Shown here in pieces: positions 24,140 to 39,278 of a DNA stretch of 39,799 nt (position 1 is its first letter; each line of letters starts with the position of its first letter). Under the pieces are notes generated by a model. The model was not told where the DNA came from and did no database searches. It saw only the letters and a program-made list of their open reading frames with translations. Source of the stretch: Acidimicrobiaceae bacterium (GTDB lineage Bacteria > Actinomycetota > Acidimicrobiia > Acidimicrobiales > Bog-793); NCBI GenBank assembly GCA_003139355.1, contig PLIM01000017.1:11922-51720 (forward strand), written 5' to 3'. Position numbers and translations under genes: made by a program.

Positions 24140-24157
24140 CTCGACACTAATATGACA
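24121..24157. promoter_or_regulatory. Inverted repeat over the GntR start, likely autoregulatory operator
   Basis: TGTCAATAT (24121-24129) and ATATGACA (24150-24157) form an imperfect inverted repeat. It covers the first codons of the GntR-kinase gene and the upstream flank of the divergent lactonase gene. TAATAT at 24148-24153 could be the -10 of the latter. A GntR protein bound here would block both divergent genes. The gap between the two start codons is only 31 bp, so the promoters must overlap coding sequence. Confidence 0.5.
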
Positions 24158-24170
24158 TGCTGAAACGCAG

Positions 24171-25169
24171 ATGCAAGTTCCTGCTACCAGAGCCGTCCCT
24201 GAGCCTTCGGCGACGGGTCGCCCACTCCAGGCGACCGCGACGAAGGTCGTACGCACCGTCCGGGGCGATATCAGCCCTTCTGAGCTAGGGCCCACCGACG
24301 CGCATGAGCACCTCTTCCTGGTTACACCCATCCAGCCTGGTGACGAGTTCTCGGATGTCGGACGTGCCATCGAAGAGGCGGGAACACTGGTCGCAGCCGG
24401 CGTCAAGGCGCTTGTCGACTGGACACCGGTCGGCCTTGGTCGTGACCCCGAAGGCCTGCTCCGGGTCTCCGAGGCAACTGGCCTGCACGTCGTGGCGGCC
24501 ACAGGCGTGCACCGCGACGCCCACTACCTGGCTGACGACGCCTTGCGTGCGACGACCGCTGAGGCGTTGGCCGACCGGTTCGTGGCCGACATCACCGGCG
24601 AGGGGGTCCGCTCAGGAATGGTCAAGGCGGGTGCCAGCTACCACCGCTTGCAGGTCTTCGAACAGAAGGTATTCGCGGCCGCCGCCGAGGCCCACCATCG
24701 GACAGGTGCGCCCCTTTGTGTCCACACAGAGCACGGAACGATGGGACTTGGCATCGTCGAGCACCTGAGTCACCTGGGTGTCCCCGCAACATCGGTGCTG
24801 CTGGCTCATCTCGACCGCAACCCAGACCCGGTCGAGCACGCCGAGACCGGCGCCACGGGAGCCTGGCTCCAACTGGACGGTCCCGGCCGCACCAAGTACT
24901 GGCCGGACTCGACCGTTCTTCGGCTCATCGCCGATCTCGCCGAACATGGGTTGGCCGGCCAGCTCCTGCTCGGCGGGGACACCGGCCGCAGCTCGATGAT
25001 GCGCGCCTATGGCGGCGGGCCTGGCCTCGATTACCTCTTCGCCCGCTTCAAACCGCGCCTCGAACGGGAGCTGGGCGAGGAGCTCTCCCGAACCATCTTC
25101 GTCGAGAACCCCGCCCGCGCCTTTGCATTCGAGCCGCTGCACGGCGCGTCCTCCTTTTCGCGGTCGTGA
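24171..25169 (+). CDS. Phosphotriesterase-family metal hydrolase, probable sugar lactonase
   Basis: Binuclear-metal amidohydrolase of the PTE/PHP family, 332 residues. Metal ligands are His45 and His47 in DAHEHLF, the carboxylated-type Lys152 in GMVKAGAS, His185 in CVHTEHGT, His213 in LLAHLDRNPD and Asp270 in LGGDTGR. The N-terminal block TVRGDISPSELG is typical of the phosphotriesterase-related branch, several members of which are lactonases. No other start codon exists in the first 33 codons, so ATG 24171 stands, although it lacks a good ribosome binding site. It is divergent from the regulator-kinase, consistent with opening a lactone made by one of the operon's dehydrogenases; this assignment is inference. 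Confidence 0.88.
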   Translation: MQVPATRAVPEPSATGRPLQATATKVVRTVRGDISPSELGPTDAHEHLFLVTPIQPGDEFSDVGRAIEEAGTLVAAGVKALVDWTPVGLGRDPEGLLRVSEATGLHVVAATGVHRDAHYLADDALRATTAEALADRFVADITGEGVRSGMVKAGASYHRLQVFEQKVFAAAAEAHHRTGAPLCVHTEHGTMGLGIVEHLSHLGVPATSVLLAHLDRNPDPVEHAETGATGAWLQLDGPGRTKYWPDSTVLRLIADLAEHGLAGQLLLGGDTGRSSMMRAYGGGPGLDYLFARFKPRLERELGEELSRTIFVENPARAFAFEPLHGASSFSRS

Positions 25170-25243
25170 GCCTGCTCGAGCGCGGCCAAGGGACCGGCGC
25201 GATACACCTCGAGCCCGCGCGCCACCAGCGCACGGACGTGGAC

Positions 25244-25274
25244 CGCTCCGCGCACCGGCCAGGTCCGCGGAGCG
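25244..25274. terminator. Inverted repeat between convergent lactonase and ABC ATPase
   Basis: CGCTCCGCG (25244-25252) and CGCGGAGCG (25266-25274) are perfect 9-base arms around a 13-base loop. They lie in the 108-bp gap between convergent genes and could stop transcription from both sides. There is no U tract. Confidence 0.5.
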
Positions 25275-25277
25275 TCG

Positions 25278-26075
25278 TCAGGCAGCCGTCTGGATCTCGG
25301 CGCCCGTCATCAGCCGCACGACCTGCTCCATGTTCGTCTCAGCAGTGCGCACCACCCCGGCGCGCTGTCCCGCTCTGAGGATCAGGATCCGGGTCGTGAG
25401 CTCGAAGACCTGGGGCATGTTGTGGCTGATGAGCACGACGCTCAAGCCGCGCCCGTTGATCGCCTGGATCAGCTCCTGCATCGCCTTCGACTCGCGGACC
25501 CCGAGCGCAGCCGTCGGCTCGTCCAGGATCACGATGTGCCGCCCGAACACCACTGCCCGGCTGACTGCCACCGCCTGACGCTGGCCGCCGGAGAGGGTCT
25601 CAACTTTCTGGCGCACTGAGCCGAGACCGATGTTCAGCGAGTTCAGCTGCTCGCGCGCCTGGCGCTGCATGCTCCGCCGGTTGACGATCGGGAGCAGCCG
25701 GCCGAAGCGGCCGCCGATCCGCTCCTCCCGGCCGAGGAAGAGGTTCTCGGCGACGTCGAGCATTGGCACCACCGCCAGGTCCTGGTAGACGGTTTCGATA
25801 CCCAGGGCCTGGGCAGCGACCGGGCTGCCCATGTGGACCCGCCGGCCGTCGATCAGGACTTCACCGACGTCCGGCTGCAGCACGCCAGAGAGGATCTTGA
25901 TCAAAGTCGACTTCCCGGCGCCGTTGTCGCCCACCAGCCCCAGTACCTCTCCCGGGAGCAGGTCGAGGTCGACCTTGCTCAAGGCTTGGACGTGGCCGAA
26001 CGCCTTCGAGACGCCTCGCGCCTCCAGAACCGGCGAAGCGGTGGCGGCAGGCATCAACCCGCCGCCACCGCCCAT
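25278..26075 (-). CDS. CUT2 sugar ABC transporter ATP-binding protein (single-domain)
   Basis: ATPase of a ribose/xylose/inositol-type importer. Motifs are Walker A GLVGDNGAGKST, Q-loop TVYQDLAVVP, signature LSGGQRQAVAVSRA, Walker B IVILDEPTAAL and H-loop VLISHNM. It has one nucleotide-binding domain (265 residues), like FrcA-type proteins, rather than the duplicated ~500-residue RbsA. The frame is open further upstream but overlaps the binding-protein gene; starts at ATG 26075 (12 bp after that gene) or ATG 26054 are possible. With the binding protein and permease it makes a complete transporter in the order permease, binding protein, ATPase. Confidence 0.93.
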   Translation of the reverse strand: MGGGGGLMPAATASPVLEARGVSKAFGHVQALSKVDLDLLPGEVLGLVGDNGAGKSTLIKILSGVLQPDVGEVLIDGRRVHMGSPVAAQALGIETVYQDLAVVPMLDVAENLFLGREERIGGRFGRLLPIVNRRSMQRQAREQLNSLNIGLGSVRQKVETLSGGQRQAVAVSRAVVFGRHIVILDEPTAALGVRESKAMQELIQAINGRGLSVVLISHNMPQVFELTTRILILRAGQRAGVVRTAETNMEQVVRLMTGAEIQTAA

Positions 26076-26086
26076 AGACGAAGAGG

Positions 26087-27190
26087 TTACTTCTTCCACT
26101 TCCTGATCGGCCCTGTCGAACCGGCCGGCCCTGGTGCCTTGAACGGTGGCTCGCCCCACGCCTTGGCCGCTTGCCCGACGGACGTCGCCTTCCAGCGCGT
26201 CTGCCAGACCTTCCAGTCGGCCGGCACCACGTTGTGCGACGGCTGCGGGATCGTCTCGTGCCATCCGCCACCGGTCAGCAGGGAGTGCAGGATCGTGGTC
26301 GACTCGTACCCCCAGCCCCAGTAGTCCTGCGTCCACACCGACTGAACGATGTCATCGCGCAGGTACGCCACCACTGATGCGAGCGGGTCGAAGGACTCGA
26401 CCTTGATCTTGCCCTTGGCCTTGTCCAACAGAGGCGTTGCGCCTTCGTTGGAGAACAGGGCCCAGCCGCCGACCATCACTATCCCGTTCAGGGTGGGGTA
26501 GCTCCGGATGGTGTCCTCCAGATCCGCGATCGCGGTCGGAGTGTCGTCCATGGTGTAAACGGTGTTTAGGACCGTGATGCCCTTCCCCAGCTTGGACTTC
26601 ACGCCCAGGATGCGCTCGTTCAGGTTGAGTGCGGACGGGTCGCCGCTGATGATGACGACATTGCCCTTGCCGTGGAGCAACGTGCGCATTTCGGCGCCCA
26701 TCTTCTGCCCGACAGCGAAGCTGTTGACACCGTAGAAGCAGACGCGCTTGCTGCTGGGGGCGTCCGAGTCCCAGGTCATCACACAGATGCCCTTGCTGAT
26801 CGCCTTGTTGATCACCGGGATGTAGGCAATCGGGTCGTTGCAGCTGATACCGATCGCGTCCACCTTGGACGAAACCAGCCCTTCGAGCACGTTGATGTCG
26901 AGCTCGGTGTTGGTGGTGGTTCCGGCAGTGAAGACCGGGGTGATGTCGCCGAGCTCCTTGGCCCGCTCTTCGAGGCCGAGCTTGGCCAACGCGAACACCG
27001 GGTTGTCAAGCCCCTTAGGGACGATGGCGATCGTGTACTTTCTTTTGGGAACTAATCCTCCGAACTCCTTCGACTTCCACAACTTGGACGTCGCCAGGAC
27101 ACCAGTTGTGGCCCCTGTCAGCTTGAGGAACTGACGCCGTGTAGTACCTTTGCTAGTCTCAGAAGCGACCAGGTCAGGACTTTCGCTCAT
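26087..27190 (-). CDS. CUT2 periplasmic-type sugar-binding protein with Tat signal
   Basis: Substrate-binding protein of the RbsB/inositol family (type I periplasmic fold). The N-terminus carries a twin-arginine signal, TTRRQFLKLTGATTGVLA, so it is exported folded. The mature part begins KYTIAIVPKGLDNPVFALAK and has EGLVSSKVDAIGISCNDP and VMTWDSDAP, where the Asp contacts sugar in relatives. The C-terminal half contains ADLEDTIRSYPTLNGIVMVG. The length of 367 residues is slightly long because of the leader and a basic tail (IRKWKK). ATG 27190 has AAGGAG 11 bases upstream. It lies between the permease and ATPase genes. The sugar cannot be read from sequence. Confidence 0.93.
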   Translation of the reverse strand: MSESPDLVASETSKGTTRRQFLKLTGATTGVLATSKLWKSKEFGGLVPKRKYTIAIVPKGLDNPVFALAKLGLEERAKELGDITPVFTAGTTTNTELDINVLEGLVSSKVDAIGISCNDPIAYIPVINKAISKGICVMTWDSDAPSSKRVCFYGVNSFAVGQKMGAEMRTLLHGKGNVVIISGDPSALNLNERILGVKSKLGKGITVLNTVYTMDDTPTAIADLEDTIRSYPTLNGIVMVGGWALFSNEGATPLLDKAKGKIKVESFDPLASVVAYLRDDIVQSVWTQDYWGWGYESTTILHSLLTGGGWHETIPQPSHNVVPADWKVWQTRWKATSVGQAAKAWGEPPFKAPGPAGSTGPIRKWKK

Positions 27191-27308
27191 TTTGAATTAC
27201 ACTCCTTCTTGTCCTCGCACTGCCTATTTGTGGGTGCCCTCTCCTCCTATTCTCTTCATGTAGATGCTGACGCGATCTTAGTTCCGTTAACCCAAAGGAT
27301 ACCTCTTC

Positions 27309-28355
27309 TCAGCCGCGTCGTAAACGTCGCCGCAGCTGGTCCACCCCAATGGCGGTCAGGATCACGCACCCCACGATCATCTCGGTCCAGTAGCCCGGCA
27401 CCTGGGCCAGAGTGAGGCCGTCCGAGATCTCGCCGACCAAGGTGGCTCCCAGCAGCGTTCCGAAGAGGGTGCCCTGGCCGCCGAACAGACTGACCCCCCC
27501 GATCACCGCCGCGGCGATGACGTTCAGCTCGTCGCCGAGACCCTGGCTAGGGTTGGCCGAGCCCAAGAACGACATCAGGAGTATGCCGCCGACGGAACCG
27601 AGCAGGCCGGCCAGGGCGTACGTGAACATCTTGACTCGCCTGACCCTGATACCCAGCAGCCGGCAAGCATCCTCGTTACCGCCGACGGCGTAAATGTGAC
27701 GGCCCAGCGGGGTGTACCGGAGGAAGAGCGTCAGGGCGATGGCCAGCCCGATCATCACGACCACAGGGTTGGGGACACCGAGGATCGTCCCCTGCCCGAG
27801 ACTGTCGAACGACTGGGGCGGGTAGAGCGTAAACCCCTGGCTGTAGGCCACCGCCGCCCCGCCCACCACGCTCAACATGCCCAGGGTGGCGATGAACGGC
27901 TGCATCCCCACCACGGTGACGAGGAAGCCATTGACCAGACCCACCCCGATCCCCACACCGAGGCCGGCGAGGAGCGCGAGGGCCGTGCCGTGCCCGTCAG
28001 CCATCACCGCCGCGGCCAGCAGTCCCGACAGGCTGATGTTCGACCCCACCGAGAGATCGATGCCCTTGGTCATGATGACCATCGCCCCCCCGAGGGCGGC
28101 GATGCCGACGTAAGAGAACTCCTGGGCGGTGGTGAGGAGGTTGCTGCTGGTCATGAAGCAATGGCACGGCGAGGTGCTATTGAAGAGCACTCCCAGAACG
28201 ACGATGCCGATGAGAACGCCGATCCAGGGGACGGCCAGCAGTCCTGCCCCGCTCAGCTTGAGCACTCGGCGGAACCGGGAGACCTCTCGGCCAGGAGCGT
28301 CCTCCGACTCGAGCGGAGCGTCCTCCGGCTCACTCGCGGATCCGCTGGGCGTCAT
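27309..28355 (-). CDS. CUT2 sugar ABC transporter permease (RbsC-type)
   Basis: Membrane subunit of the ribose/xylose/inositol transporter family. A ~30-residue acidic cytoplasmic tail precedes eight to ten hydrophobic segments. Family blocks are visible: IMTKGIDLSVGSNISLSG, GMQPFIATLGM, TPLGRHIYAVGGNEDACRLL (the ATPase-contacting loop) and ANPSQGLGDELNVIAAAVIG. ATG 28355 is preferred, with AGGTGG 10 bases upstream; GTG 28382 is a longer option without a ribosome binding site. It is followed after 118 bp by the binding-protein gene, so it may be expressed partly on its own. Confidence 0.92.
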   Translation of the reverse strand: MTPSGSASEPEDAPLESEDAPGREVSRFRRVLKLSGAGLLAVPWIGVLIGIVVLGVLFNSTSPCHCFMTSSNLLTTAQEFSYVGIAALGGAMVIMTKGIDLSVGSNISLSGLLAAAVMADGHGTALALLAGLGVGIGVGLVNGFLVTVVGMQPFIATLGMLSVVGGAAVAYSQGFTLYPPQSFDSLGQGTILGVPNPVVVMIGLAIALTLFLRYTPLGRHIYAVGGNEDACRLLGIRVRRVKMFTYALAGLLGSVGGILLMSFLGSANPSQGLGDELNVIAAAVIGGVSLFGGQGTLFGTLLGATLVGEISDGLTLAQVPGYWTEMIVGCVILTAIGVDQLRRRLRRG

Positions 28356-28564
28356 CAGTCTCGCCACCTGGCCTCGCTTCACGTTCGGTACGACTCTTAG
28401 TAGCGGGAACTGAAACTACGTGTTGCGCTCTCGCACAGCAAGCAGGTTGGACGAGGCGCTGGCCAGGCGGTCATAGCGAAGGCGTCGTAAGGATCGCCGG
28501 AGGCTCGAAATCCGCAACCGGTTGGCCACTTGGCAGACCCCAAGGGTCCAGGTCGACCCAACGC

Positions 28565-29557
28565 TCAGGGTGCGATCTGTGTCTTGATCCCCCTGCCGGT
28601 TCCCGAGCGCATGGCAGTCAGCGCATCGTTGTACTCCTCCAGCGGAAAAGGAGCCCCGAGGAGCGGCAAGACGTTCACCTGACCCGCTTCCATCAGCCGG
28701 ACCGCCGTCCCGAAGCTGTTGAGAACTGCCATCGACCCCTTCACCGTGATCTCGTCGTTGAAGATCCGGAAGGGGGACAGACCGACCCTCGCCTTGACGT
28801 CAGCGACACCGAAGACGAGGAGGGTTCCACCTCGATCGACCGCATCGAAGGCCGCCTCGACGGCCTTGGGGACACCGGTGGCATCGACCACCACCTCGAA
28901 GAGCGCGTCAAGCTCTTCAGTCGAGGAGGCACACGGGCCCAGTCCGAGCGCAGTGGCCACCTCGAGACGCGGGCTGAGGGGGTCGACGATCGCAACCTCC
29001 GAGGCACCCATGGCGGCAAGGAGCTGGCCGATCAGCAGACCCATGGTCCCTGCACCGACGACAAGGGTGTGCCGACCGAGAACCTCGCCGACCTGGCGGA
29101 CGCCAAGGACCGCGCACGAGAGCGGCTCGATCATTGCGGCTTGCTCGGCGCTGAGCGCGTCCGAAACGAAATACGCGTTGGCGGCGCGGGCCTTGACGAA
29201 CTCAGCGAAAGCGCCGGGGCCCGTCACACCGACCGCGCTGTAGCGGGTGCACAAGTTCGCTCTGCCTGAGCGGCAGAAGCGGCAAGCGCCACAGTGGGTG
29301 TTGGGGTCGACCGCGATCCGCTGCCCCAGGGCTGGTCCTTCGACAGCGTTTCCCCTGGCCACGACGACCCCGCTGAACTCATGGCCGGGCACGAGTGGGT
29401 AGGACGCCAGCGGAGACTCACCATCGATGAGATGAAGGTCGGTTCCACAGACCCCGCAAGCACCGACCTCGACTACTACCTCATCGGCCCCGGGCGTCGG
29501 GTCTTCAACCTCTCCGAGCTCGAGGACGCCCGGTTCCACGATGGTCAGTGCGCGCAC
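28565..29557 (-). CDS. Zinc-dependent alcohol/polyol dehydrogenase (paralogue A)
   Basis: MDR-family dehydrogenase, 330 residues. Catalytic zinc: Cys in GVCGTD and His-Glu in PGHEFSG. Structural zinc: four Cys in HCGACRFCRSGRANLC. The cofactor loop is LVVGAGTMGLLIG. IFNDEITVKGSMAVLNSF closely matches the divergent gene at 29835-30836 (IYNDEITVVGAMAVLESY), so the pair arose by duplication. The start is GTG 29557 with AAGGAA upstream at a long spacing. It is the gene upstream of the CUT2 permease on the same strand, so it may oxidise the imported sugar or polyol. Confidence 0.93.
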   Translation of the reverse strand: MRALTIVEPGVLELGEVEDPTPGADEVVVEVGACGVCGTDLHLIDGESPLASYPLVPGHEFSGVVVARGNAVEGPALGQRIAVDPNTHCGACRFCRSGRANLCTRYSAVGVTGPGAFAEFVKARAANAYFVSDALSAEQAAMIEPLSCAVLGVRQVGEVLGRHTLVVGAGTMGLLIGQLLAAMGASEVAIVDPLSPRLEVATALGLGPCASSTEELDALFEVVVDATGVPKAVEAAFDAVDRGGTLLVFGVADVKARVGLSPFRIFNDEITVKGSMAVLNSFGTAVRLMEAGQVNVLPLLGAPFPLEEYNDALTAMRSGTGRGIKTQIAP

Positions 29558-29834
29558 CGTCCCGGCTCATTCCTTCTCGCTGGACGGCATGAAAGGTCAC
29601 TGTACCACTAGGCCACGTCGGATGACAGATATAGGGCGAGCCTGGATAACGTTGGATCAGAAGAAGGCCGGAGTAGGACTCCGAGCTATGATGCCGTTAC
29701 AATAGAGCTCACTCGCAGCACACCACTTGGGGTCGATACCCAAGTAATGGAGGTCGACACCTAGGTAAGGTTATCCTCCTAATCCGATGGGCCTGGATGG
29801 CTGATCCTATACACAACTATGAAAGGAGCCCGGA
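29558..29834. promoter_or_regulatory. 277-bp divergent control region between the two alcohol dehydrogenases
   Basis: This non-coding gap is AT-richer than the rest of the window and separates two divergent paralogous genes, so both promoters should be here. It contains a two-copy direct repeat (annotated separately). CTTGGGGTCGATACCCAAG at about 29727-29745 has inverted CTTGGG/CCCAAG ends. TATACA near 29808-29813 could be a -10 for the plus-strand gene, and AAAGGAG just before ATG 29835 is its ribosome binding site. Confidence 0.55.
29731..29770 (+). repeat. Two-copy direct repeat with 21-bp period, candidate operator
   Basis: GGTCGATACCCAAGTAATG (29731-29749) and GGTCGACACCTAGGTAAGG (29752-29770) share GGTCGAYACCYARGTAAKG. 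The period is 21 bp, two helical turns, so a bound regulator would occupy the same face twice. Each unit carries a short inverted core, GGT-CGAY-ACC. No local regulator gene is adjacent; the GntR fusion at 21821-24139 is the nearest candidate on the left. Confidence 0.6.
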
Positions 29835-30836
29835 ATGCAGGCTGTCGTAATCGAGTCACCAGGTGACATATCCATCGGCCAGATGGAGGATCCCATTCCT
29901 GGTCCTCAGGACATTGTGGTCGCAGTGCGTGCCTGTGGAATCTGCGGAACCGACATTCATTTGGCTGATGGCGAGTTCACCGCGGCACACTATCCCCTGG
30001 TTCCGGGTCACGAGTTCGCGGGCGAGGTGGTCGCTGTCGGTAAGGAAGTCTCAAGCCTCCGTCCCGGAGCGCTCGTCGCAGTGGACCCGTCACTCTATTG
30101 CGGTCACTGCCGGCCCTGTCGCTCGGGTCATGGCAACCTTTGCGAGAACTGGAACGCCGTCGGTGTCAGTGTCCCTGGTGGTGCCGCCGAGTTCGTCGCC
30201 GTGCCCGACTGGAATGCGCATCCTCTTCCCCCCGGCTTCGATATGTCGCTTGGTGCCCTCATCGAGCCGCTGTCATGCGCGGTGCACGGCTACGACCTCA
30301 TCAGGACCAAGCTCGCAGACCGCTTCCTCGTCTACGGTGCCGGGACGATGGGCCTGATGCTCTTGTTGCTGGCAAGTCGTTCCGGGGCCATATCGGTCAC
30401 TGTGGTAGAGCCGAACCTGGCACGACGCGAGAGGGCACTTTCCTTTGGTGCGACGACGGTGGTGGCGCGCGGCGACGAGCTCGACAGCCCCAAGGGCTAT
30501 GACGTGGTCATAGACGCTACGGGCGTGATCGCGGCCATCGAGGACGGCATCCGCCGAGTGCGGCGTGGAGGGACCTTCCTCCAGTTCGGCGTCGCAGCGC
30601 CAGATGCGAGGGCGAGCATCTCGCCCTATCGGATCTACAATGACGAGATCACCGTGGTCGGCGCGATGGCGGTGCTCGAGAGTTACGACCGGGCCTGTGA
30701 TCTCGCGATTGAGGCAGATCTCGGACTCCTGCGCCTCGTCAGTGACCAGTTGCCGCTCGGCGCGTATGTCGACGCTCTTGGTCGTGCCCGGCGAGGCGAG
30801 GGTTACAAGATCCACGTGCTTCCGGCAATCCGCTAG
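29835..30836 (+). CDS. Zinc-dependent alcohol/polyol dehydrogenase (paralogue B)
   Basis: MDR-family dehydrogenase, 333 residues, paralogous to the gene at 28565-29557. Catalytic zinc: Cys in GICGTD and His-Glu in PGHEFAG. Structural zinc: YCGHCRPCRSGHGNLC. The cofactor loop is LVYGAGTMGLML, and VVEPNLARRERA follows as in NAD-dependent polyol dehydrogenases. ATG 29835 has AAAGGAG at good spacing. It is divergent from its paralogue and faces the xylulokinase gene convergently. Oxidation of a sugar alcohol such as xylitol or arabinitol to a ketose feeding the xylulokinase is possible but is inference. Confidence 0.93.
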   Translation: MQAVVIESPGDISIGQMEDPIPGPQDIVVAVRACGICGTDIHLADGEFTAAHYPLVPGHEFAGEVVAVGKEVSSLRPGALVAVDPSLYCGHCRPCRSGHGNLCENWNAVGVSVPGGAAEFVAVPDWNAHPLPPGFDMSLGALIEPLSCAVHGYDLIRTKLADRFLVYGAGTMGLMLLLLASRSGAISVTVVEPNLARRERALSFGATTVVARGDELDSPKGYDVVIDATGVIAAIEDGIRRVRRGGTFLQFGVAAPDARASISPYRIYNDEITVVGAMAVLESYDRACDLAIEADLGLLRLVSDQLPLGAYVDALGRARRGEGYKIHVLPAIR

Positions 30837-30959
30837 GCCAGGACCAGAGCTGTCCTGCACTTGTCCCACAGCGGCGGCCACCAGCCGCAGCCGGCGCTCG
30901 TTCAGCAAGGGCGACCTCAACGAGAAGAGCCGAGCCAGGTCCTCCTCGCTGAGATCCAT
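30837..30959 (-). pseudogene. Transposase N-terminal remnant (ISAzo13-like)
   Basis: A minus-strand stretch starting at ATG 30959 reads MDLSEEDLARLFSLRSPLLN and then ERRLRLVAAAVGQVQ before it runs into the end of the dehydrogenase gene. The L-N-E-R-x-R-L-x-A-A pattern resembles the N-terminal region of ISAzo13-type transposases (PLLNERQRRLLAA). Only about 40 codons remain. The match is from memory of the family and is short, so the call is tentative. The rest of the gap to 31041 shows nothing else. Confidence 0.4.
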
Positions 30960-31041
30960 ACCGAGATCTCAGACCGTGCGCCTTGTTCACGCGAGGACCC
31001 TCACGGCCACCACGACCACGATGGGTGCGACACCGACATCC

Positions 31042-32529
31042 CTACAGCGCCTCGAACCACGGTTCGAGGCGCTGGTAGGCCTCCACGAACAGAGCATGCG
31101 CCCGGGCGTAACGGTCGTGCGCTTCAGGATCGGGTAGCTCCTCCTCCCGAACCTTGGAGAACCGCTTGGCCACCTCGAAATTCTCGAAGATGCCGACACC
31201 GACGCCACCGACTATCGCCGCGCCCAACGAGGTCGCCTCGTCGACAAGGTCCCGTCGACGTACTGGCACGCCCCAGGTGTCGGCGAGAATCCGTAGCAGG
31301 TGTGACGAGTTGGCGGCACCGCCAATTGCGTCGACATGATCAATTCGTGCGCCGTTCTCGGTGAATGCCTGCAGGCAGCTGTACAGGTTGAAGGCCACCC
31401 CTTCGACAACGGCTCTGGCAAGATGTTCTGGGCCGTGACGCAGCTCGAGGCCGGCGAACACTGCCCGTGCGCGGGGATTCCAATAGGGCGAGCGTTCACC
31501 CAGCAGGTACGGAAGAAAATACAGCCCGTCCTCGCTTGCCCGGGCGCCAGCGGCAGCTTCTAACAGACGTTCGTAGCGGCCGTCTTCTCCCGGCGCCAGG
31601 ACATCGATGATCCACTGCAGCGACGCACCGCCGGCTTGCATGGTGGCTGTCGGCGTGTAGCAGCCCGGAACCACGTGGTTGAACGTCATCGATCGCATCT
31701 TCGGATCATGCAGCGGCGCCTCAGCGGCAAGCGAGACCCAGGCGGACGAACCGAGGTAGGCATAGGCGCCGCAACTGGAGTCGACAATTCCCGCGCCCAA
31801 GCCGGCCATGGGCCCGTCGCCTCCGCCCAGCACGACCGGTGTTCCCACTCGCAGCCCGGTGGCTGCGGCGGCCGGAGGGGTCACCGTACCCACGACGGTC
31901 GTCGACGCTGCGATCTCCGGCAGCAGCGTCTTGGCGATGGAGGCAGCCTCCAGGAGCTCCTCGGACCAGGTGCCGCACTGCTGATCGAAGGCGTTGGTGC
32001 CGCTGGCGTCGGATGGATCGGTGACGAGGACCCCGGTCAGACGGTGCACCATGAAGTCCTTGGCCAATACCACGTGAGCTGTCCGGGCGAACACCTCGGG
32101 CTCGTTGTCGCGCACCCACATGATCTTTTCCAAGGAATACGTTGGATTGAGCCGGTGGCCGGTGATCCTGTAGGCGTTGTCCATGCCCACGCGTTCGATG
32201 AGCTGATTCGTCTGTTCCGTCGAACGTGTGTCGGCCCAGATGATCGCCGGACGCACGGGTTGGCCCTTGTTGTCCAACAAGACGGCCCCCATCATCTGAC
32301 CAGAGAAGCACACACCGGCGATCTTCTCTCTGGCGCGCGGGACAGACTGGATCAGACGGCACGTCGCCTCGCACAGGGCCTGCCACCATGCCTCGGGGTC
32401 CTGTTCGGCCATCCCTCTCGCGCCGAAGTCGGTTCCATAACGCGCGGTGTCCGCAGCAACGACACGGCCGTCGGCGTCGACCAGCGTTGCCTTGTCCCCC
32501 GTGGTGCCGAGATCGTGCGAGATGATCAT
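31042..32529 (-). CDS. xylB: Xylulokinase-like FGGY carbohydrate kinase
   Basis: Phosphorylates a ketose, probably D-xylulose. N-terminal phosphate loop: SHDLGTTGDKATLVD. Other family blocks: GVCFSGQMMGAVLLD, WADTRSTEQ, SLEKIMWVRDNEP, Asp of VLGGGDGPMAGLGAG, and the C-terminal IGGAANSSHLLRIL. The length of 495 residues is typical for XylB. The frame is open upstream to 32616, but ATG 32529 follows AGAAGGAAG at normal spacing and starts at the conserved first strand. It may complete xylose use with xylA at 3886-5070, though the two are about 26 kb apart. Ribulose or another ketose cannot be excluded. Confidence 0.85.
   Translation of the reverse strand: MIISHDLGTTGDKATLVDADGRVVAADTARYGTDFGARGMAEQDPEAWWQALCEATCRLIQSVPRAREKIAGVCFSGQMMGAVLLDNKGQPVRPAIIWADTRSTEQTNQLIERVGMDNAYRITGHRLNPTYSLEKIMWVRDNEPEVFARTAHVVLAKDFMVHRLTGVLVTDPSDASGTNAFDQQCGTWSEELLEAASIAKTLLPEIAASTTVVGTVTPPAAAATGLRVGTPVVLGGGDGPMAGLGAGIVDSSCGAYAYLGSSAWVSLAAEAPLHDPKMRSMTFNHVVPGCYTPTATMQAGGASLQWIIDVLAPGEDGRYERLLEAAAGARASEDGLYFLPYLLGERSPYWNPRARAVFAGLELRHGPEHLARAVVEGVAFNLYSCLQAFTENGARIDHVDAIGGAANSSHLLRILADTWGVPVRRRDLVDEATSLGAAIVGGVGVGIFENFEVAKRFSKVREEELPDPEAHDRYARAHALFVEAYQRLEPWFEAL
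31045..31074 (-). terminator. Perfect 14-bp palindrome inside the last codons of the kinase gene
   Basis: Arms 31045-31058 and 31061-31074 are exact reverse complements around two bases. They lie entirely in the coding sequence for the C-terminal QRLEPWFEAL, ending at the TAG. Such a stem could act as a terminator or protect the 3' end of the mRNA. There is no following U tract. Confidence 0.55.
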
Positions 32530-32705
32530 TGCCAGACTTCCTTCTGGTTGGATCGGCGGCTCATCCGGTCTATCACCACGGCTTGACCAACCAATTGGGT
32601 CGGCGATCAGCGCCACCCTCCACGAGCCTCACGTCGCCGGCCGCAATTCGCCCTGCACTGCTCGAGCTGCTCCGGCAATTGCGTGTCCTCACGCTGCAGT
32701 TTCGC

Positions 32706-32762: not shown

Positions 32763-35636
32763 CTATGAGCAGCCGCTCGTCGAGCCGCAGCTCGGGCAGG
32801 CGTAACACGAGCCGGCACGCTGCATGACATTGCCACAGGCGTAACAGAACGGAGCATCCCTGCTTTCCATCTGCTCCGCCGGCCGCAACCGTTCTTCCTC
32901 CCGCGGGCGACGAGCTGTGGCGTCCCCCCCGCCGCCGAAGCGCTCTCGGTCGGTCCGCTCTGCATCTCCGTTGTCGACATCCTCGAGACCGGGCAGCGTC
33001 GGTTGGGTCCGCTCCCCCGTCGAGAGAACCCCGAGCTCGAGCCGCTCGTCAAAGCTCAGGTACTCGAGGGCCAGCCGCCTGAAGATGTAGTCGACAAGGC
33101 TCGAAGCCAACCGCAATTCCGGGTCGTCGGTTATTCCCGCCGGCTCGAAACGCATGTTGGTGTACTTGCGAACGAACGTCGACAGCGGCACGCCGTGCTG
33201 CAACCCGAGGCTGACGGCGATGGAGAAGGCGTCCATGACGCCCGACAAGGTCGAGCCCTGCTTGGAGACCTTCATGAAGACCTCACCGGGGCGGCCGTCC
33301 TCATACTCGCCCACAGTGACATAGCCCTCGCAGTCGGCCACCCGGAAGGCGAAGGTATTGGAGCGACGCTTGCGAGGAAGCCGGGTCCGCGTGGTCGTGG
33401 CAGGGGCGATCACGTGTCTCTGCTGCAGTGCACCCTCGAGCTCCGCGATGCGTTCCAGCAGCGCAGCCTCATTAACGTGCAGCGCCGCCTCTCCAGCGGC
33501 CACAGCTACAAGATCCTCGCCGTCGGCCACGAGCGGTGCCTCGGCTCCTGCCCGCTTCGTCGTTGCCACCGGCTGGGCGACCTTGCAGTTGTCGCGGTAG
33601 ATGGCGACCGCCTTCAGTCCCATCCGCCAGGCATCGATGTGCATTTCCTCGACTTCCTCCACCGTGACCTGCTCGGGGATGTTCACAGTCTTGGAAATCG
33701 CGCCCGAAATCAAGGGCTGTGCCGCCGCCATCATCTTGACGTGGCCGAGATAGTGGATCGTGTTGTCACCCATCGAACAGGCAAAGACCGGCAGATGGTC
33801 GGCCCGAAGCTTCGGTGCCCCAACGATGGTCCTGTGCTCGTCGATGTAGGCGACGATCTGCTCAGCCTCGTCAGGGCTGTAACCGAGCCGCTTCAACGCT
33901 CGGGGAACGGTCTGGTTGACGATCGACATCGTTCCGCCCCCGACGAGCTTCTTCGTCTTCACAAGCCCGAGGTCGGGCTCGATCCCCGTCGTGTCGCAGT
34001 CCATCAGAAACGAGATCGTGCCCGTAGGTGCCAGCACCGTCGCTTGGGCATTGCGCACGCCGTGCACTTCGGCCATCTCGACTGCGGTGTCCCAGGCCTC
34101 TTGTGCCGCGCAGAGCAGCTCCGTCGGCACCTGCTCCTCGTCGATCTTGGCCACCTCGAGGCGGTGCATCCGCAGAACGTTCAGCATCGGGTCCGCGTTC
34201 TCGTGGAAGCCGGCGAACGGTCCCATCCTCGCTGCCGTGCGAGCCGAGGTCACGTACGCCGCGCCCGTCATCAGCGCTGTGATCGCCGCAGCGATGGCGC
34301 GGCCCTCGTCCGAGTCGTACGGCACGCCCAGGGCCATGAGCAGCGCCCCGAGGTTCGAGTAACCGAGACCGAGCTCTCGGAATCGGCGCGTGGTGTCGCC
34401 GATCTTCGCCGTCGGGTAGTCCGCGTTGCCGACGAGGATCTCCTGAGCCGTGAACACGACGGCGACCGCGGCCTGGAACCCCGTGACGTCGAAGGTGTCG
34501 TCATCGTTCAGGAATCCCATGAGGTTGAGGCTGGCGAGGTTGCAGCTGCTGTTGTCGAGGTGAACATATTCTGAGCAGGGGTTACTTGCCGTGATCCGGC
34601 CTGTGTTGGGCGCGGTGTGCCACTTGTTGATAGTCGTGTCGAACTGCATCCCGGGATCGGCGCACTCCCACGCGGCTTCCGCGATCTGGCGAAACAGCTT
34701 TCGCGCCTTGACAGTCTCAGTGACCTGGCCCGAGGTCCGGCCGATGAGATCCCAGTCGCTGTCGTCGAGCACCGCCTGCATGAACTCGTCGGTCACCCGC
34801 ACCGAGTTGTTGGCATTCTGGTACTGCAACGAGTGGCTGTCTCTCCCGTCCAGGTCCATATCGAAACCGGCCTGTGCCAGCGCACGCGCCTTGCGCTCCT
34901 CACGCGCCTTACACCAGATGAACTCCTGGATATCGGGATGATCGATATCCAGGATCACCATCTTCGCGGCGCGACGGGTCTTGCCCCCGGACTTGATCGT
35001 CCCGGCGGAGGCGTCCGCCCCACGCATGAAGCTCACGGGCCCCGAGGCGGTCCCGCCTCCGTGGAGCAGTTCTCGAGAAGACCGGATGTTCGAAAGGTTG
35101 ACTCCCGCGCCCGATCCACCCTTGAAGATGGTGCCCTCCTCGACGTACCAGTTCAGGATCGAGGACATCGAGTCCTCGACGGCGAGGATGAAGCAGGCTG
35201 CCGCTTGCTGCGGCACGCCCTCAACGCCGATGTTGAACCAGACCGGGGAGTTGAACGCTGCCTTCTGCTGCACGACGAGGTGCTTGAGCTCGTCGTTGAA
35301 CGTGGCCGCCTCGGCCGCATCGACGAAGTAGCCGTCCTTCAGGCCCCACGCTGTGATCGTGTCCACGACACGGTCGACCACCTGGCGGAGCGAGGATTCC
35401 CGTCCCGCCATGCCGACGGTGCCCCGGAAGTACTTCTGGGCGAGGATGTTGGTCGCATTCAGGCTCCAAGTCGAAGGCACCTCCACGCCGACCTGCTCGA
35501 AGGCGACCGCACCGGTGCGGTAGTCGGTGATGCGAGAGTCGCGGCGCTCCCAGACCACCTCGTCATAGGGATGCCGCGACTCCGTGGTGAAGTACCGGTG
35601 GATGCCGATTCCGAGGCGCTCTCCTGCAACGGCCAT
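32763..35636 (-). CDS. nrdJ: Vitamin B12-dependent ribonucleoside-diphosphate reductase
   Basis: Class II reductase making deoxyribonucleotides with adenosylcobalamin, independent of oxygen. The N-terminal redox Cys is Cys148 (QAAACFILAVEDSM). The active-site triad is Asn352, Cys354 and Glu356 in SNPCSEYVHLDN, and Cys365 (SSCNLAS) is the second redox Cys. PTGTISFLMDCDTTGIEPD is the conserved phosphate-binding region. The C-terminus has a zinc-ribbon-like CYACG-x8-CYACPSCG tail used for re-reduction in this class. The length of 957 residues is usual and there is no intein. ATG 35636 has AAGGGA upstream; the longer frame to 35732 overlaps the putative NrdR boxes and is rejected. It is the one clear housekeeping gene among the sugar genes. 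Confidence 0.97.
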   Translation of the reverse strand: MAVAGERLGIGIHRYFTTESRHPYDEVVWERRDSRITDYRTGAVAFEQVGVEVPSTWSLNATNILAQKYFRGTVGMAGRESSLRQVVDRVVDTITAWGLKDGYFVDAAEAATFNDELKHLVVQQKAAFNSPVWFNIGVEGVPQQAAACFILAVEDSMSSILNWYVEEGTIFKGGSGAGVNLSNIRSSRELLHGGGTASGPVSFMRGADASAGTIKSGGKTRRAAKMVILDIDHPDIQEFIWCKAREERKARALAQAGFDMDLDGRDSHSLQYQNANNSVRVTDEFMQAVLDDSDWDLIGRTSGQVTETVKARKLFRQIAEAAWECADPGMQFDTTINKWHTAPNTGRITASNPCSEYVHLDNSSCNLASLNLMGFLNDDDTFDVTGFQAAVAVVFTAQEILVGNADYPTAKIGDTTRRFRELGLGYSNLGALLMALGVPYDSDEGRAIAAAITALMTGAAYVTSARTAARMGPFAGFHENADPMLNVLRMHRLEVAKIDEEQVPTELLCAAQEAWDTAVEMAEVHGVRNAQATVLAPTGTISFLMDCDTTGIEPDLGLVKTKKLVGGGTMSIVNQTVPRALKRLGYSPDEAEQIVAYIDEHRTIVGAPKLRADHLPVFACSMGDNTIHYLGHVKMMAAAQPLISGAISKTVNIPEQVTVEEVEEMHIDAWRMGLKAVAIYRDNCKVAQPVATTKRAGAEAPLVADGEDLVAVAAGEAALHVNEAALLERIAELEGALQQRHVIAPATTTRTRLPRKRRSNTFAFRVADCEGYVTVGEYEDGRPGEVFMKVSKQGSTLSGVMDAFSIAVSLGLQHGVPLSTFVRKYTNMRFEPAGITDDPELRLASSLVDYIFRRLALEYLSFDERLELGVLSTGERTQPTLPGLEDVDNGDAERTDRERFGGGGDATARRPREEERLRPAEQMESRDAPFCYACGNVMQRAGSCYACPSCGSTSGCS

Positions 35637-35710
35637 TGAATGGTTCCCTTCTTGGCGGAACTTGTCCGCCACACGAGATCCTTCACCTGGCACCCACCAG
35701 ATTCCCAGAT

Positions 35711-35758
35711 ACCACAATATCTTGTGGTGCAACCGAATCCAGCCACCAGATAGGTGGA
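35711..35758 (-). promoter_or_regulatory. Tandem NrdR-like boxes upstream of nrdJ
   Basis: ACCACAATATCTTGTGGT (35711-35728) is a palindrome with 7-base arms. CCACCAGATAGGTGG (35743-35757) has 5-base arms. Their centres are about 31 bp apart, with roughly 15 bp between 16-bp cores. That is the paired arrangement of NrdR repressor boxes, about three helical turns. They lie about 75-120 bases before the nrdJ start. Confidence 0.7.
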
Positions 35759-35894
35759 TAATTACAGCACCGTAGTTACGGCCGTGTCAACGGCCGGCAG
35801 CGGTTGTCATCCCTGCTCAACGGCCGCTCGCGAAGGTTCTCGTTTGCTTGCACTTGCAATCGCCGGCTCGGCCGCACCCGGCCGGCGGACCGAC

Positions 35895-35909
35895 TACCGT
35901 GCCGCCGTG
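35895..35909 (+). promoter_or_regulatory. Leaderless-type promoter of the glycerol kinase gene
   Basis: TACCGT (35895-35900) fits the actinobacterial TANNNT -10 element, and GTG 35907 follows after 6 bases, so transcription would begin at or next to the start codon. No Shine-Dalgarno sequence precedes this GTG. The -35 region is not obvious. Confidence 0.5.
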
Positions 35910-37457
35910 GCTGTAGTGATTGCGATCGATGCCGGCACCTCAGGAGTGCGAGCGCTTGCTGTCGATGAGAACGGCCAGGTCGTGGCCACTTCCCACCGGG
36001 AGCTCTCCCAGTACTTCCCGGCTCCCGGGCTCGTCGAGCACGACGCCGCCGAAATCTGGTCTCTCGTCGAGACAACCTTGGCGGAGCTGCACTCTCAACT
36101 GGCCGAGCGTTCGCTCACCACGGCCACGATCGGGATTGCCAACCAACGTGAGACCGCGGTGGCGTGGGACCGTTCGACAGGCCGGCCGTCCCATCGAGCC
36201 ATCGTGTGGCAGGACCGCCGAACAGCGGCGCGATGTGTCGAGCTCGCCGAGGCCGGCCATCTCCCGCTCGTACGCGAACGGACCGGGCTCGTGCTCGACC
36301 CGTACTTCTCGGGTACCAAGTGGTCGTGGATGCTGGAGCACGGTGGTGTCGAGCCCGGCGGCTCGCTCGCCCTCGGGACGGTGGACGACTGGATCTGTTG
36401 GAACCTGACCGGAGGTGCCGGATCGGGCGCCCACGTCACGGATCCTTCCAACGCCAGCCGGACGCTTTGTTACGACATCGAGCGGCGGGCCTGGTCAGCG
36501 GAGTTGTGCGACGTCCTCCGCGTACCGCTCGAGGCGCTCGGTGAGGTCCTCCCGTCTGCCTGGAGGTACGGCACGGTCGCGACCGGTGTCGCCGGTGGCT
36601 GGTTCACAGGTGTGCCGGTGAGCGGCATCGCCGGCGACCAGCAGGCGGCGCTCTTCGGGCACGGATGCCACCTGCCCGGGGACACCAAGGTGACCTACGG
36701 CACGGGGAGCTTTGTCCTCATGAACCTCGGCGCACAGCTGCCTCCGCCAACCGAGGGACTCTTGACCACGGTCGCTTGGGACCTTGGCGAGCACGCCCCG
36801 AAGGACTCCACTGACGGCTTCAACTACGCACTTGAAGGCTCGATCTTCTCGGCCGGCGCCACGATCCAGTGGCTGCGCGACGGTCTCAAGTTGGTCGACG
36901 ACGCAGCCGAGGCCGCACCGCTCGCCTCCGAGATCGCCGGCAACGACGGCGTGTACCTCGTCCCTGCCTTCACCGGCCTCGGAAGTCCTTGGTGGGATGC
37001 TCAAGCGCGGGGCACCGTCGTGGGCTTGTCCAGGGGAACCGGGCGGGCGCATTTCGCCCGGGCGGCCATCGAGGCCATGGCCTACCAGTGCCGCGATGTC
37101 GTCGACGCTATGGGCAGCGCCGCGGGTCAGTCGTTGAGCCAGCTCAGTGCCGACGGTGGAGCTTCCGCGATGGACCTGCTCTTGCAATTCCAGGCGGACC
37201 AGTGTGGTGTGCCGGTCGTCCGACCTCGCACCACTGAGGTCACTGGCCTGGGCGCCGCCATGCTCGCTGGGCTCGCCGAAGGCGTCTGGAGCTCGCTCGA
37301 GGAGTTGCGGGCCTTGGTGACCAACGCCGAGGTCTTCGAGCCCGCGCCCAGGCGTGGCCGGGCGGACGCTGATCACGCCGGCTGGCGAGCGGCGCTCGAG
37401 CGCTCAAGACGTTGGGAGCGGATCTCCCTGGGAACCGGGAAGTCCCAGAGCCTGTAG
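35907..37457 (+). CDS. glpK: Glycerol kinase
   Basis: Phosphorylates glycerol to glycerol-3-phosphate. Glycerol-binding residues of GlpK are present: Arg81 and Glu82 in IANQRETAVAWD, Tyr133 in LDPYFSGTKWSWML, and Asp244 in SGIAGDQQAALFG. The phosphate loop is IAIDAGTSGVRAL (the family usually has G-T-T/S-S). VPAFTGLGSPWWD and ADGGASAMDLLLQFQAD complete the pattern. Starting at GTG 35907 the protein has 516 residues, normal for the family; the frame is open upstream to 35754, but that part has no homology and overlaps the nrdJ control region. No GlpF or GlpD gene is visible beside it. It is divergent from nrdJ. Confidence 0.9.
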   Translation: MAVVIAIDAGTSGVRALAVDENGQVVATSHRELSQYFPAPGLVEHDAAEIWSLVETTLAELHSQLAERSLTTATIGIANQRETAVAWDRSTGRPSHRAIVWQDRRTAARCVELAEAGHLPLVRERTGLVLDPYFSGTKWSWMLEHGGVEPGGSLALGTVDDWICWNLTGGAGSGAHVTDPSNASRTLCYDIERRAWSAELCDVLRVPLEALGEVLPSAWRYGTVATGVAGGWFTGVPVSGIAGDQQAALFGHGCHLPGDTKVTYGTGSFVLMNLGAQLPPPTEGLLTTVAWDLGEHAPKDSTDGFNYALEGSIFSAGATIQWLRDGLKLVDDAAEAAPLASEIAGNDGVYLVPAFTGLGSPWWDAQARGTVVGLSRGTGRAHFARAAIEAMAYQCRDVVDAMGSAAGQSLSQLSADGGASAMDLLLQFQADQCGVPVVRPRTTEVTGLGAAMLAGLAEGVWSSLEELRALVTNAEVFEPAPRRGRADADHAGWRAALERSRRWERISLGTGKSQSL

Positions 37458-37598: not shown

Positions 37599-39278
37599 AT
37601 GGCGGAAGGCCAGCTCACCCAAGGGAGTAGAGCCTGGACCGGGTGGATCCCGGCCTTCGTCGCCATGTCGATGGCGCTTCTCATCGGGCTCGTTCTCCTT
37701 GGCCCGTTCGTCTCGGTCAAGGCCGGCGCAGCGACCAGGCATCCTGCGCTTGTCGGTCACGTGGCGCCGGCCAATCCCGCCGGCGCGCGAAGCGTTGAAG
37801 CTCCCGCCTGGTGGAACGGTGGGACCTGCGATCCCGGCGACGCCCCAGGATCTCATCGGCTCGGTGCCGCCTGGCACGGTCTGGTCGCGTGCGGCCCCGG
37901 TCCGACCCAAGGCGGCAGCGATCACCTGGTGGACTTCTTTCCTGGCGCCTGGGGCGAGCTCGAATGGGAATGCGTCGAGCTGTCCATGCGCTGGATGTAC
38001 CTCGCATGGGGTGTGAACCCATACCCGGCCGACGGTTGGGACGTCGTGCGCAACTACAACCTCGGCACCAACAAGGCCAAGTACAACCCCAACGGGCCTC
38101 AACTCGTCGTCGTCAACAACGGCACGGTCGGAGCCGTCCCGCAACCCGGCGACGTCGTCTCGGTCGGCCGCACCCGGCACGACAGCTTCGGGCACACGGC
38201 GGTCGTGACTGCGAACGCCGTGGACGCTCGAGGCAACGGGACGGTCACCTTGATTCAGCAGAACGGCGGCACCGGCAACGACGGATGGGCCATCTATCGC
38301 GTCAACGACTGGGTCGTCGCGAATGGGGTCACCGGCTGGCTCCACAACCCCTCGTGGACGATTCAGTGGCCGCTGGTCGGGTTCTCCGGGCCAACCGGGT
38401 TCGAGTCACGGGTCGTGGCGCCTGGCAACGGCTACGGGCTGGTCGCCACCGGCGCAAGTTCCATCGCCGTGGCTGGCGACACAGGCGTGATGGGAGCCAA
38501 CGGCGATGCGATCTACGGCTACATCGGCCAAAGCGGCAACTTCTTCGTGAAACGGGGTTCGTCGACCACCTGGAGCCTCGTTGCGCACAACGCGAGATCC
38601 ATAGCCGTGGCCATGACCACCTCGGGAGCGCCGGTCCTGGCCTTTGTGAACACGGCCGGCGACTTCTACGCCGAGGAGGGCTCGCTCGCCGGAGCCTTCG
38701 TACTCGAGGCCAAGGGTGTCGCGTCGATCGCACTCGCCGGCGGCGGGGGCACTGCTCCCCCGCTGCTCGGCTACATCCAGAGCCAGAGCGGCGCCTTTCT
38801 CGTGAAGACGGGTGTGGCCGGCGGCCGCTGGACTGTCGTTCAGGCCTCGGGCGTGAGCGCGATCGCTCTCGCCGAGGGGACCACCTCACCGAGCGGACTG
38901 ATCGGATATCTGTCGAACAACGGGACGTTCTTCGCGGAGGAGGCATCGCCGCAGGCTCAGTGGACCAAGCAAGCGAGCAAGGTAACAGCCATCTCCCTGG
39001 CGGCAGTCGGGCCTTCCGGCGAGCCACTCCTCGGCTACCTGGCAGGAAGCAGCTTCTACGCCGCCGAGAGCCTGACGCCTGCGACCTGGGTCCAGGAGGC
39101 GACCGGGGTCGCCCAGATGGCCGTCGCTTCCGGCTCGGCGCCGGGCGCTTTGCCGGTCCTCGGTTATGTCACGACCGCCGGCGACCTCGAGGTGATGCAA
39201 GGCCAGCTCTGCAGGCCTTTCTCACGGCAGGCCCGTGGCGCGTCGTCCCTCGCGCTCTCGAGCGTCACCGATTCCTGA
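37599..39278 (+). CDS. Secreted CHAP-domain protein with seven propeller-like repeats
   Basis: The 559-residue protein has an N-terminal membrane/signal segment (residues ~17-45, WIPAFVAMSMALLIGLVLLG). A CHAP-type amidase/peptidase domain follows (~75-255), with Cys125 in WECVELSMRW and His199 in SFGHTAVVT; it probably cuts peptidoglycan peptide bonds. The C-terminal half holds seven degenerate units of 42-46 residues, each with an x-SIA-LA strand (centred at 289, 335, 377, 422, 465, 507 and 551), then GYI and FF-E/K-W. The seventh is only a strand, as in propellers closed by shared strands. Catalytic completeness beyond Cys and His is not certain. ATG 37599 lacks a strong ribosome binding site. 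It is a single gene and its target is unknown. Confidence 0.85.
   Translation: MAEGQLTQGSRAWTGWIPAFVAMSMALLIGLVLLGPFVSVKAGAATRHPALVGHVAPANPAGARSVEAPAWWNGGTCDPGDAPGSHRLGAAWHGLVACGPGPTQGGSDHLVDFFPGAWGELEWECVELSMRWMYLAWGVNPYPADGWDVVRNYNLGTNKAKYNPNGPQLVVVNNGTVGAVPQPGDVVSVGRTRHDSFGHTAVVTANAVDARGNGTVTLIQQNGGTGNDGWAIYRVNDWVVANGVTGWLHNPSWTIQWPLVGFSGPTGFESRVVAPGNGYGLVATGASSIAVAGDTGVMGANGDAIYGYIGQSGNFFVKRGSSTTWSLVAHNARSIAVAMTTSGAPVLAFVNTAGDFYAEEGSLAGAFVLEAKGVASIALAGGGGTAPPLLGYIQSQSGAFLVKTGVAGGRWTVVQASGVSAIALAEGTTSPSGLIGYLSNNGTFFAEEASPQAQWTKQASKVTAISLAAVGPSGEPLLGYLAGSSFYAAESLTPATWVQEATGVAQMAVASGSAPGALPVLGYVTTAGDLEVMQGQLCRPFSRQARGASSLALSSVTDS

Follow-up and report, generated by a model that had tools for sequence, protein, structure and literature searches.

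The PLL/PHL lectins of Photorhabdus form the family PropLec7A, which corresponds to DUF346 of Pfam (PMC7778903). PLLs are described as stand-alone lectins that bind sugars between the blades with tryptophan stacking (PMC6943638). The UmbA lectins of the Streptomyces umbrella toxins are secreted actinobacterial multi-domain proteins with C-terminal propeller lectins, including seven seven-bladed families, and the accessible part of their description mentions no CHAP domain (PMC13274773). The stretch analysed here (the window, 39,799 nucleotides of contig PLIM01000017.1, assembly GCA_003139355.1) carries a plus-strand gene at 37,599–39,278 for a 559-residue protein, in which a CHAP-type domain is followed by a seven-unit repeat predicted to fold into a seven-bladed propeller. 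Like the PLL/PHL lectins, the predicted propeller has seven blades of four strands, but it is fused to an enzyme, shares only 8–11% identity with them and is without a DUF346 match at the locus. The trypsin-like N-terminal domain of the UmbA proteins has no Pfam match in the window protein, whose N-terminal half matches CHAP. With the PF05257 CHAP/glutathionylspermidine (Gsp) amidase branch the protein shares a score above the cut-off and Cys, His and Asn residues in register, but it differs in being probably exported and in having an N-terminal segment with a conserved cysteine pair. Tectonins (PF19193) have short blades anchored by tryptophan, which is a likeness to the window propeller, and tectonin 2, aligned by Foldseek over about 232 columns, reaches a TM-score of 0.32–0.33 relative to the length of the model. 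Both parts of this CHAP enzyme with a propeller are of known kinds, but no catalogued sequence family was found to which the propeller could be assigned. Among open-licence papers, none was detected that treats a CHAP domain together with a propeller lectin and the cell wall, with tachylectin, or with a C-terminal beta-propeller in actinobacteria; one that touches on CHAP, beta-propellers and peptidoglycan hydrolases concerns a partial-propeller immunity protein acting on a separate hydrolase (PMC3391265).

The source of the window is a soil-type actinobacterium, the close relatives of which come from peat bogs, and its draft genome comprises 2.9 Mb on 197 contigs. The open reading frame exists as claimed in an earlier, sequence-only reading of this stretch (plus strand, ATG start, 559 codons), and the contig ends 521 bases past its 3′ end. 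Relatives in two genomes (G008 and G010) align across residues 7–559 of the window protein. The hydropathy of the N-terminus reaches its maximum, a 19-residue mean of 2.35, at residues 16–34, and A-G-A stands directly ahead of the likely cleavage site, as spotted by eye. Residues 1–44 (37,599–37,730, plus strand) are thus probably a signal peptide and the protein is probably secreted.

To evaluate the repeat, the profile of the C-terminal half was aligned with itself, and 50 column-shuffled copies served as the control. Ten off-diagonal alignments were obtained with E-values from 1.3e-22 to 1.6e-5, representing five offsets of about 46, 87, 130, 172 and 218 residues in both directions, and one further alignment appeared at offset 261 (E 0.031), while the best off-diagonal E-value among the shuffled copies was 0.085. 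Autocorrelation of the window protein at lags of 25–69 residues peaked at 43, a value matched by none of 200 shuffles. Phased from residue 258, the domain is divided into seven complete units of 41–46 residues, the starts of which come from the self-alignment except for that at residue 431, which was interpolated. All lie on the plus strand: unit 1, residues 258–303 (38,370–38,507); unit 2, 304–344 (38,508–38,630); unit 3, 345–387 (38,631–38,759); unit 4, 388–430 (38,760–38,888); unit 5, 431–475 (38,889–39,023); unit 6, 476–518 (39,024–39,152); and unit 7, 519–559 (39,153–39,275), the last two strands of which share a blade with the first two of the domain in the structural model. The seven degenerate units noted after the CHAP domain by the sequence-only reading are therefore present beyond what shuffling yields, but their lengths are 41–46 rather than 42–46 residues, and the last one, which had been regarded as incomplete owing to another choice of phase, is complete.

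The structure of the C-terminal half, for which a prediction had been proposed, was modelled within the full-length protein by AlphaFold2 from an alignment of nine rows, two of them being the separate halves of L025. The model of the whole protein had a predicted template-modelling score of 0.61 and a mean predicted local distance difference test (pLDDT) value of 65.1, and from residue 255 onward pLDDT was at least 80 in 25 of the 31 ten-residue blocks, the lowest being 56. Residues 255–559 (38,361–39,275, plus strand) were modelled as a seven-bladed propeller of 28 strands, that is, six whole four-strand blades and a shared seventh, which consists of the N-terminal strands 255–264 and 267–272 and the C-terminal strands 542–545 and 550–558. 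The idea that the end of the protein completes the first blade was thus right as regards the sharing of one blade by both termini, but the C-terminal piece contributes two strands, not one. A six-bladed propeller of six whole units and a fragment was also considered and ruled out, since a single phase of the self-aligned profile accommodates seven complete units and the model has seven blades.

For structural comparison with VIA-align, the 1000 best Protein Data Bank (PDB) chains of Foldseek were taken, 969 of which could be aligned, and rows less than 1 Z apart were treated as tied. Ranks 1–17 were occupied by PLL/PHL lectins of Photorhabdus (Z 23.2–25.4 over 282–286 residues at 2.9–3.1 Å and 8–11% identity), and BP39L (Z 21.5) and CV39L (Z 20.4) were among the best 50 of the 969 aligned chains. 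The best 50 of the 1000 Foldseek chains also included fungal fucose lectins, PLL lectins and tectonin 2. The propeller suspected from the letters is hence supported by a mostly confident region of the model, as well as by its structural resemblance to known seven-bladed propellers. In the model, strand A opens with an aromatic residue in each blade (Y279, W325, F367, W411, W455, W497 and F541), and these residues are kept across the four members of the genus with one exception, a Ser in L024.

Searches for the family of the repeat, which the sequence-only reading had also suggested, found nothing above a cut-off in Pfam and nothing over this region in NCBIfam. No Pfam cut-off was reached by the repeat of the window protein or of its relatives, the best row for the window repeat being DUF5111 (E 0.16, 12.2 bits against a cut-off of 31.9). 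A sequence search of solved structures revealed no relative of the repeat at E up to 1, and a second one gave two unrelated-looking rows with E-values of 0.12 and 1.2. The same genome encodes an 835-residue protein (L040:298–2,805, minus strand) with many 'SVSCPTASFCAAVD...YNGTRWS'-like repeats and a weak match to the tectonin model, which is another candidate propeller; no sequence link between its repeats and the window repeat was found, 24 of 60 shuffles scoring as high.

The CHAP-type domain named by the sequence-only reading, at about residues 65–254 (37,791–38,360, plus strand), is supported by PF05257, which scored 35.2 bits at the window locus in a whole-genome search against a curated cut-off of 26. 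Its predicted catalytic residues are Cys125 of WECVEL as the nucleophile (37,971–37,973), His199 of FGHT (38,193–38,195) and Asn222 of QQN as the third residue (38,262–38,264), all on the plus strand. In the nine-row alignment, the cysteine is kept in all eight rows that reach the position, while the histidine and the asparagine are invariant (9/9), and inspection by eye found all three also in those of the more distant relatives that were read and cover the sites. A lack of a working catalytic set, which had been named as the possible flaw of the idea, is thus not apparent from the sequence. Cys77 and Cys98 (37,827–37,892, plus strand) form a conserved pair, present in each of the 8 rows (of 9) that cover the positions, and may be joined by a disulfide. 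Against solved amidases, the profile of the CHAP half produced weak matches with E-values of 0.0068 and 0.072; the former was glutathionylspermidine amidase 3a2z, in which Cys, His and Asn are in register. The Gsp amidase model of NCBIfam also matched the window protein weakly (E 0.28). The Glu found two residues ahead of the Asn in Gsp amidase (EQN) is Gln220 in the window protein and Thr in L026–L029.

Considering these results, we favour the reading that the gene encodes an exported CHAP-type cysteine hydrolase held on the wall by a lectin-like seven-bladed propeller, which binds a surface glycopolymer, probably of the producer's own wall, and to this we assign a probability of about 0.5. 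That the protein is exported, acts as a catalyst and binds sugar is inferred, as are its substrate and its role in the cell. The signal peptide would direct the export of the enzyme, and the Cys77–Cys98 pair may then form a disulfide in the exported protein. The propeller would attach to a glycopolymer of the wall or surface, perhaps through more than one site between its blades, and would thereby hold the CHAP site on its substrate. The CHAP half would cut peptidoglycan, most likely as an amidase or endopeptidase, and the target would be the wall of the producer, during remodelling or the separation of daughter cells. Precedents are provided by the sugar binding of the PLL lectins (PMC6943638) and by the Streptomyces propeller lectin UmbA4, which is reported to attach through its propeller to a wall polymer of the teichuronic-acid type and to recruit a particle to the cell, and in which single aromatic substitutions cut the activity (PMC13274773).

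Several results weigh against this reading. The similarity is one of fold, that is, the propeller is seven-bladed and lectin-like in shape, which is not proof of sugar binding, and the binding of a glycan is inferred from the modelled fold only. In the VIA-align ranking, a YVTN propeller (Z 23.0) stood next after the PLL rows and was tied with the lower ones, RCC1-like domains appeared soon after from Z 22.4, and the order given by Foldseek itself opens with the non-lectin KICSTOR and RCC1-like propellers. Non-lectin propellers lay 0.2–3 Z under the PLL rows and, as rows within 1 Z are tied, the margin over them is small. Conservation of the strand-A aromatics is only partial in the distant relatives L027–L029, so their role may be structural, binding or both. 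DUF346 (PF03984) had no match at the locus at E up to 10, and the tectonin family PF19193 had none there in the search of the own genome; for each, this genome has a single match, which is located on a different contig and scores under the cut-off. However, the control genomes likewise gave no match above the cut-off, which makes these negatives weak, the sensitivity of the two models to worn repeats not being established. As regards the enzymatic half, hmmscan of the window protein itself listed no CHAP. It matched CHAP in 7 of the 9 alignment rows (best E 1.9e-8), 8 of which include the CHAP half, thus the window protein is, by subtraction, the row without a match, and the speed filters are perhaps the cause. 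AlphaFold2 also gave an unusable CHAP half, most of it below pLDDT 50 in the full protein and with a mean pLDDT of 38.7 when modelled alone; since neither model could be used, the CHAP fold rests on sequence profiles.

In a search of 35 genomes of the family, the protein found a match in 13, both halves being covered in ten genomes of five genera (in two frames in G009) and the CHAP half alone in three. All four genomes of the genus of the source contained both halves. At L025:4,136–5,619, on a contig shared with L005 and L015, the CHAP and propeller halves are in different frames that meet at the domain junction, which may reflect either an error of sequencing or a genuine split. With the profile, 4 genomes of an even sample of 296 from the class were matched, namely the own genome and three others by part of the CHAP half, two of these belonging to the family and missed by the single-protein search, the third to another family. 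Among 396 sampled genomes of the phylum, the CHAP profile matched three, and the propeller profile matched the own genome and one further locus (L037, E 3.9e-4), which was dropped as a chance match, as it is part of an apparent serine/threonine protein kinase gene and in the frame of that gene. Four of 72,556 plasmid records gave a match: the propeller hit three from S. clavuligerus, and the CHAP half hit one from S. camelliae. The repeat protein of S. clavuligerus pSCL4 (L038:2,066–3,043) reached E 1.2e-11 against the propeller profile, a score equalled by none of 60 shuffles, and is 31% identical to the window propeller (pairwise E 1e-17). When it was searched back against 396 phylum genomes, only the window protein was matched. 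Outside the family, no other protein was convincingly related to the propeller by sequence. This stand-alone protein belongs to the same repeat family by sequence but has no Pfam CHAP domain and has shorter units, its autocorrelation peaking at 37. Its gene is unannotated in the pSCL4 record, the gene table of which has only 2 features, and the product is a probable secreted protein made nearly entirely of 37-residue repeats related to the window propeller. A phage or viral origin was also considered and rejected: viral contigs contained no relative of either half in scans that detect close relatives only, and 50,697 phage records gave no match at E 1e-3.

The gene lies 141 bases downstream of a gene for an FGGY-family carbohydrate kinase (35,754–37,457, plus strand; Pfam FGGY_N and FGGY_C). 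A relative of this kinase was found upstream on the same strand in all seven loci having both halves (L023–L029), at a distance of 126–210 bases in L023, L024, L025 and L027, and of 968, 1,005 and 2,752 bases in L026, L029 and L028, respectively. Next past the kinase, a class II (B12-dependent) ribonucleotide reductase is encoded on the opposite strand (32,763–35,732, minus strand; Pfam), and it occupies the same place and strand in 6 of the 7 loci, L028 being uninformative as it begins inside the kinase gene. In this comparison, the coordinates of minus-strand loci were flipped by hand. The ratio of nonsynonymous to synonymous substitution rates (dN/dS) was calculated for the three non-independent pairs among the window, L023 and L024, and was 0.24–0.35 for the mature protein, 0.21–0.32 for the CHAP half and 0.27–0.41 for the propeller, the CHAP value being the lower one in all three pairs. 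The kept neighbourhood and the low dN/dS fit an inherited gene with both halves under purifying selection. Further upstream, the region 19,753–32,616 contains genes that read by eye as sugar uptake and breakdown functions, such as ABC transporter parts and zinc-type dehydrogenases, and two further kinases (31,042–32,616 and 21,821–24,502) cross-match the FGGY kinase.

Work on the producer's own wall is favoured by the presence of the gene in 4/4 genomes of the genus and by its kept neighbourhood, thus we consider such a role somewhat more likely than that of a weapon. As a weapon, the protein would be a secreted antibacterial lysin, the propeller recognising the wall glycan of a competitor and the CHAP domain lysing that wall; such a domain logic resembles that of bacteriocin-type CHAP lysins. 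Actinobacterial propeller lectins are moreover described as addressing competitors in umbrella toxins (PMC13274773). However, the same retention of gene and neighbourhood, together with dN/dS below 0.42 in both halves, speaks against the lysin, and we regard it as unlikely. Instead of peptidoglycan, the substrate could also be a peptide or polyamine amide, in which case the propeller would act as a docking platform for a protein or ligand. By profile, glutathionylspermidine amidase (E 0.0068) is indeed the nearest CHAP-type relative of solved structure, and the propeller resembles RCC1-like and YVTN propellers as well, but the top VIA-align rows are lectins, and the probable signal peptide and the conserved cysteine pair suggest an extracellular location, in which CHAP domains usually act on peptidoglycan. 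This alternative also seems rather improbable.

The replacement of the Glu before Asn in Gsp amidase by Gln220, and by Thr in L026–L029, would be consistent with an inactive CHAP domain, in which case the protein would be a surface adhesin or a bridging protein. Since Cys, His and Asn are retained and the dN/dS of the CHAP half is below that of the propeller in 3/3 non-independent pairs (0.21–0.32 versus 0.27–0.41), a loss of activity appears very unlikely. It has also been considered that the propeller is a built-in regulator that keeps the CHAP site covered before arrival of the protein at the wall, as the partial propeller Tsi1 inhibits the cysteine peptidoglycan hydrolase Tse1 in trans; yet Tsi1 is described as a separate, partial propeller fold-related to DPP IV (PMC3391265). 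We consider regulation of this kind highly improbable.

Related CHAP domains carry other C-terminal parts. Paralogues in all four genomes of the genus (L002, L016, L017 and L020, the last interrupted by a contig end) have a related CHAP domain followed by other, longer repeats. In the paralogue of the same genome (L002:856–3,021), an extra N-terminal part, the CHAP domain and two long near-identical repeats can be seen by eye, and there are more repeats in L016 and L017. The L002 repeats had no Pfam match, CHAP being all that Pfam gave, and found one unrelated-looking PDB row (E 0.17); the impression that they might be jelly-rolls, which neither Pfam nor PDB supported, was dropped. L030 joins, by eye, a CHAP domain to another kind of repeat. 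The S. camelliae plasmid protein WP_270086729.1 (P0002; L039:1,769–4,369) is 34% identical to the window protein in the CHAP-annotated region (E 4e-10), which is followed by seven repeats, mostly 48 residues apart; it has more domains than the window protein, and hmmscan lists no CHAP for it. Its N-terminal part resembles by eye that of L002. The best PDB match of its repeats is the propeller of a two-component sensor (3v9f, E 1.4e-4), then PLL5 (E 0.015), and no sequence link to the window repeat was found, 13 of 60 shuffles scoring as high. In another family of the order, L045:571–2,124 (minus strand) has a 42-residue periodicity after CHAP, reached by none of 200 shuffles, and is possibly an independent CHAP–propeller fusion; a link of its repeats to the window repeat was not established, for although none of 60 shuffles scored as high, the match had an E-value of 0.036 and only 16 columns. 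The sequence-only reading had suggested that the propeller could be new, which holds in that the repeat lies below every Pfam cut-off, but fusions of CHAP to other repeats exist in Streptomyces as well as in a second family of the order. As no sequence link of these other fusions to the window repeat was found, the combination of CHAP with a propeller-like repeat probably arose more than once, a view drawn from architecture without a tree, the window repeat alone having been modelled.

Varied C-terminal modules on related CHAP domains are what is expected if the C-terminal end is an exchangeable binding part. We tentatively propose that the window propeller and the S. clavuligerus protein represent an unclassified family of seven-bladed lectin propellers that may serve as a wall-glycopolymer targeting module, and that, in one group of secreted actinobacterial CHAP enzymes, the targeting end may have been exchanged several times for other repeat modules, giving modular, glycan-addressed wall hydrolases. 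Most of the parts by which CHAP enzymes are described to bind walls are small modules, for example SH3b and LysM. If the favoured reading is true, a propeller offering as many as seven equivalent sites would direct a wall enzyme in another, multivalent manner, and the exchanged C-terminal modules on related CHAP domains would offer a natural comparison of the ligand of each module. To our knowledge, the surface glycans of these uncultured acidimicrobia have hardly been studied; the propeller could be used to probe these glycans.
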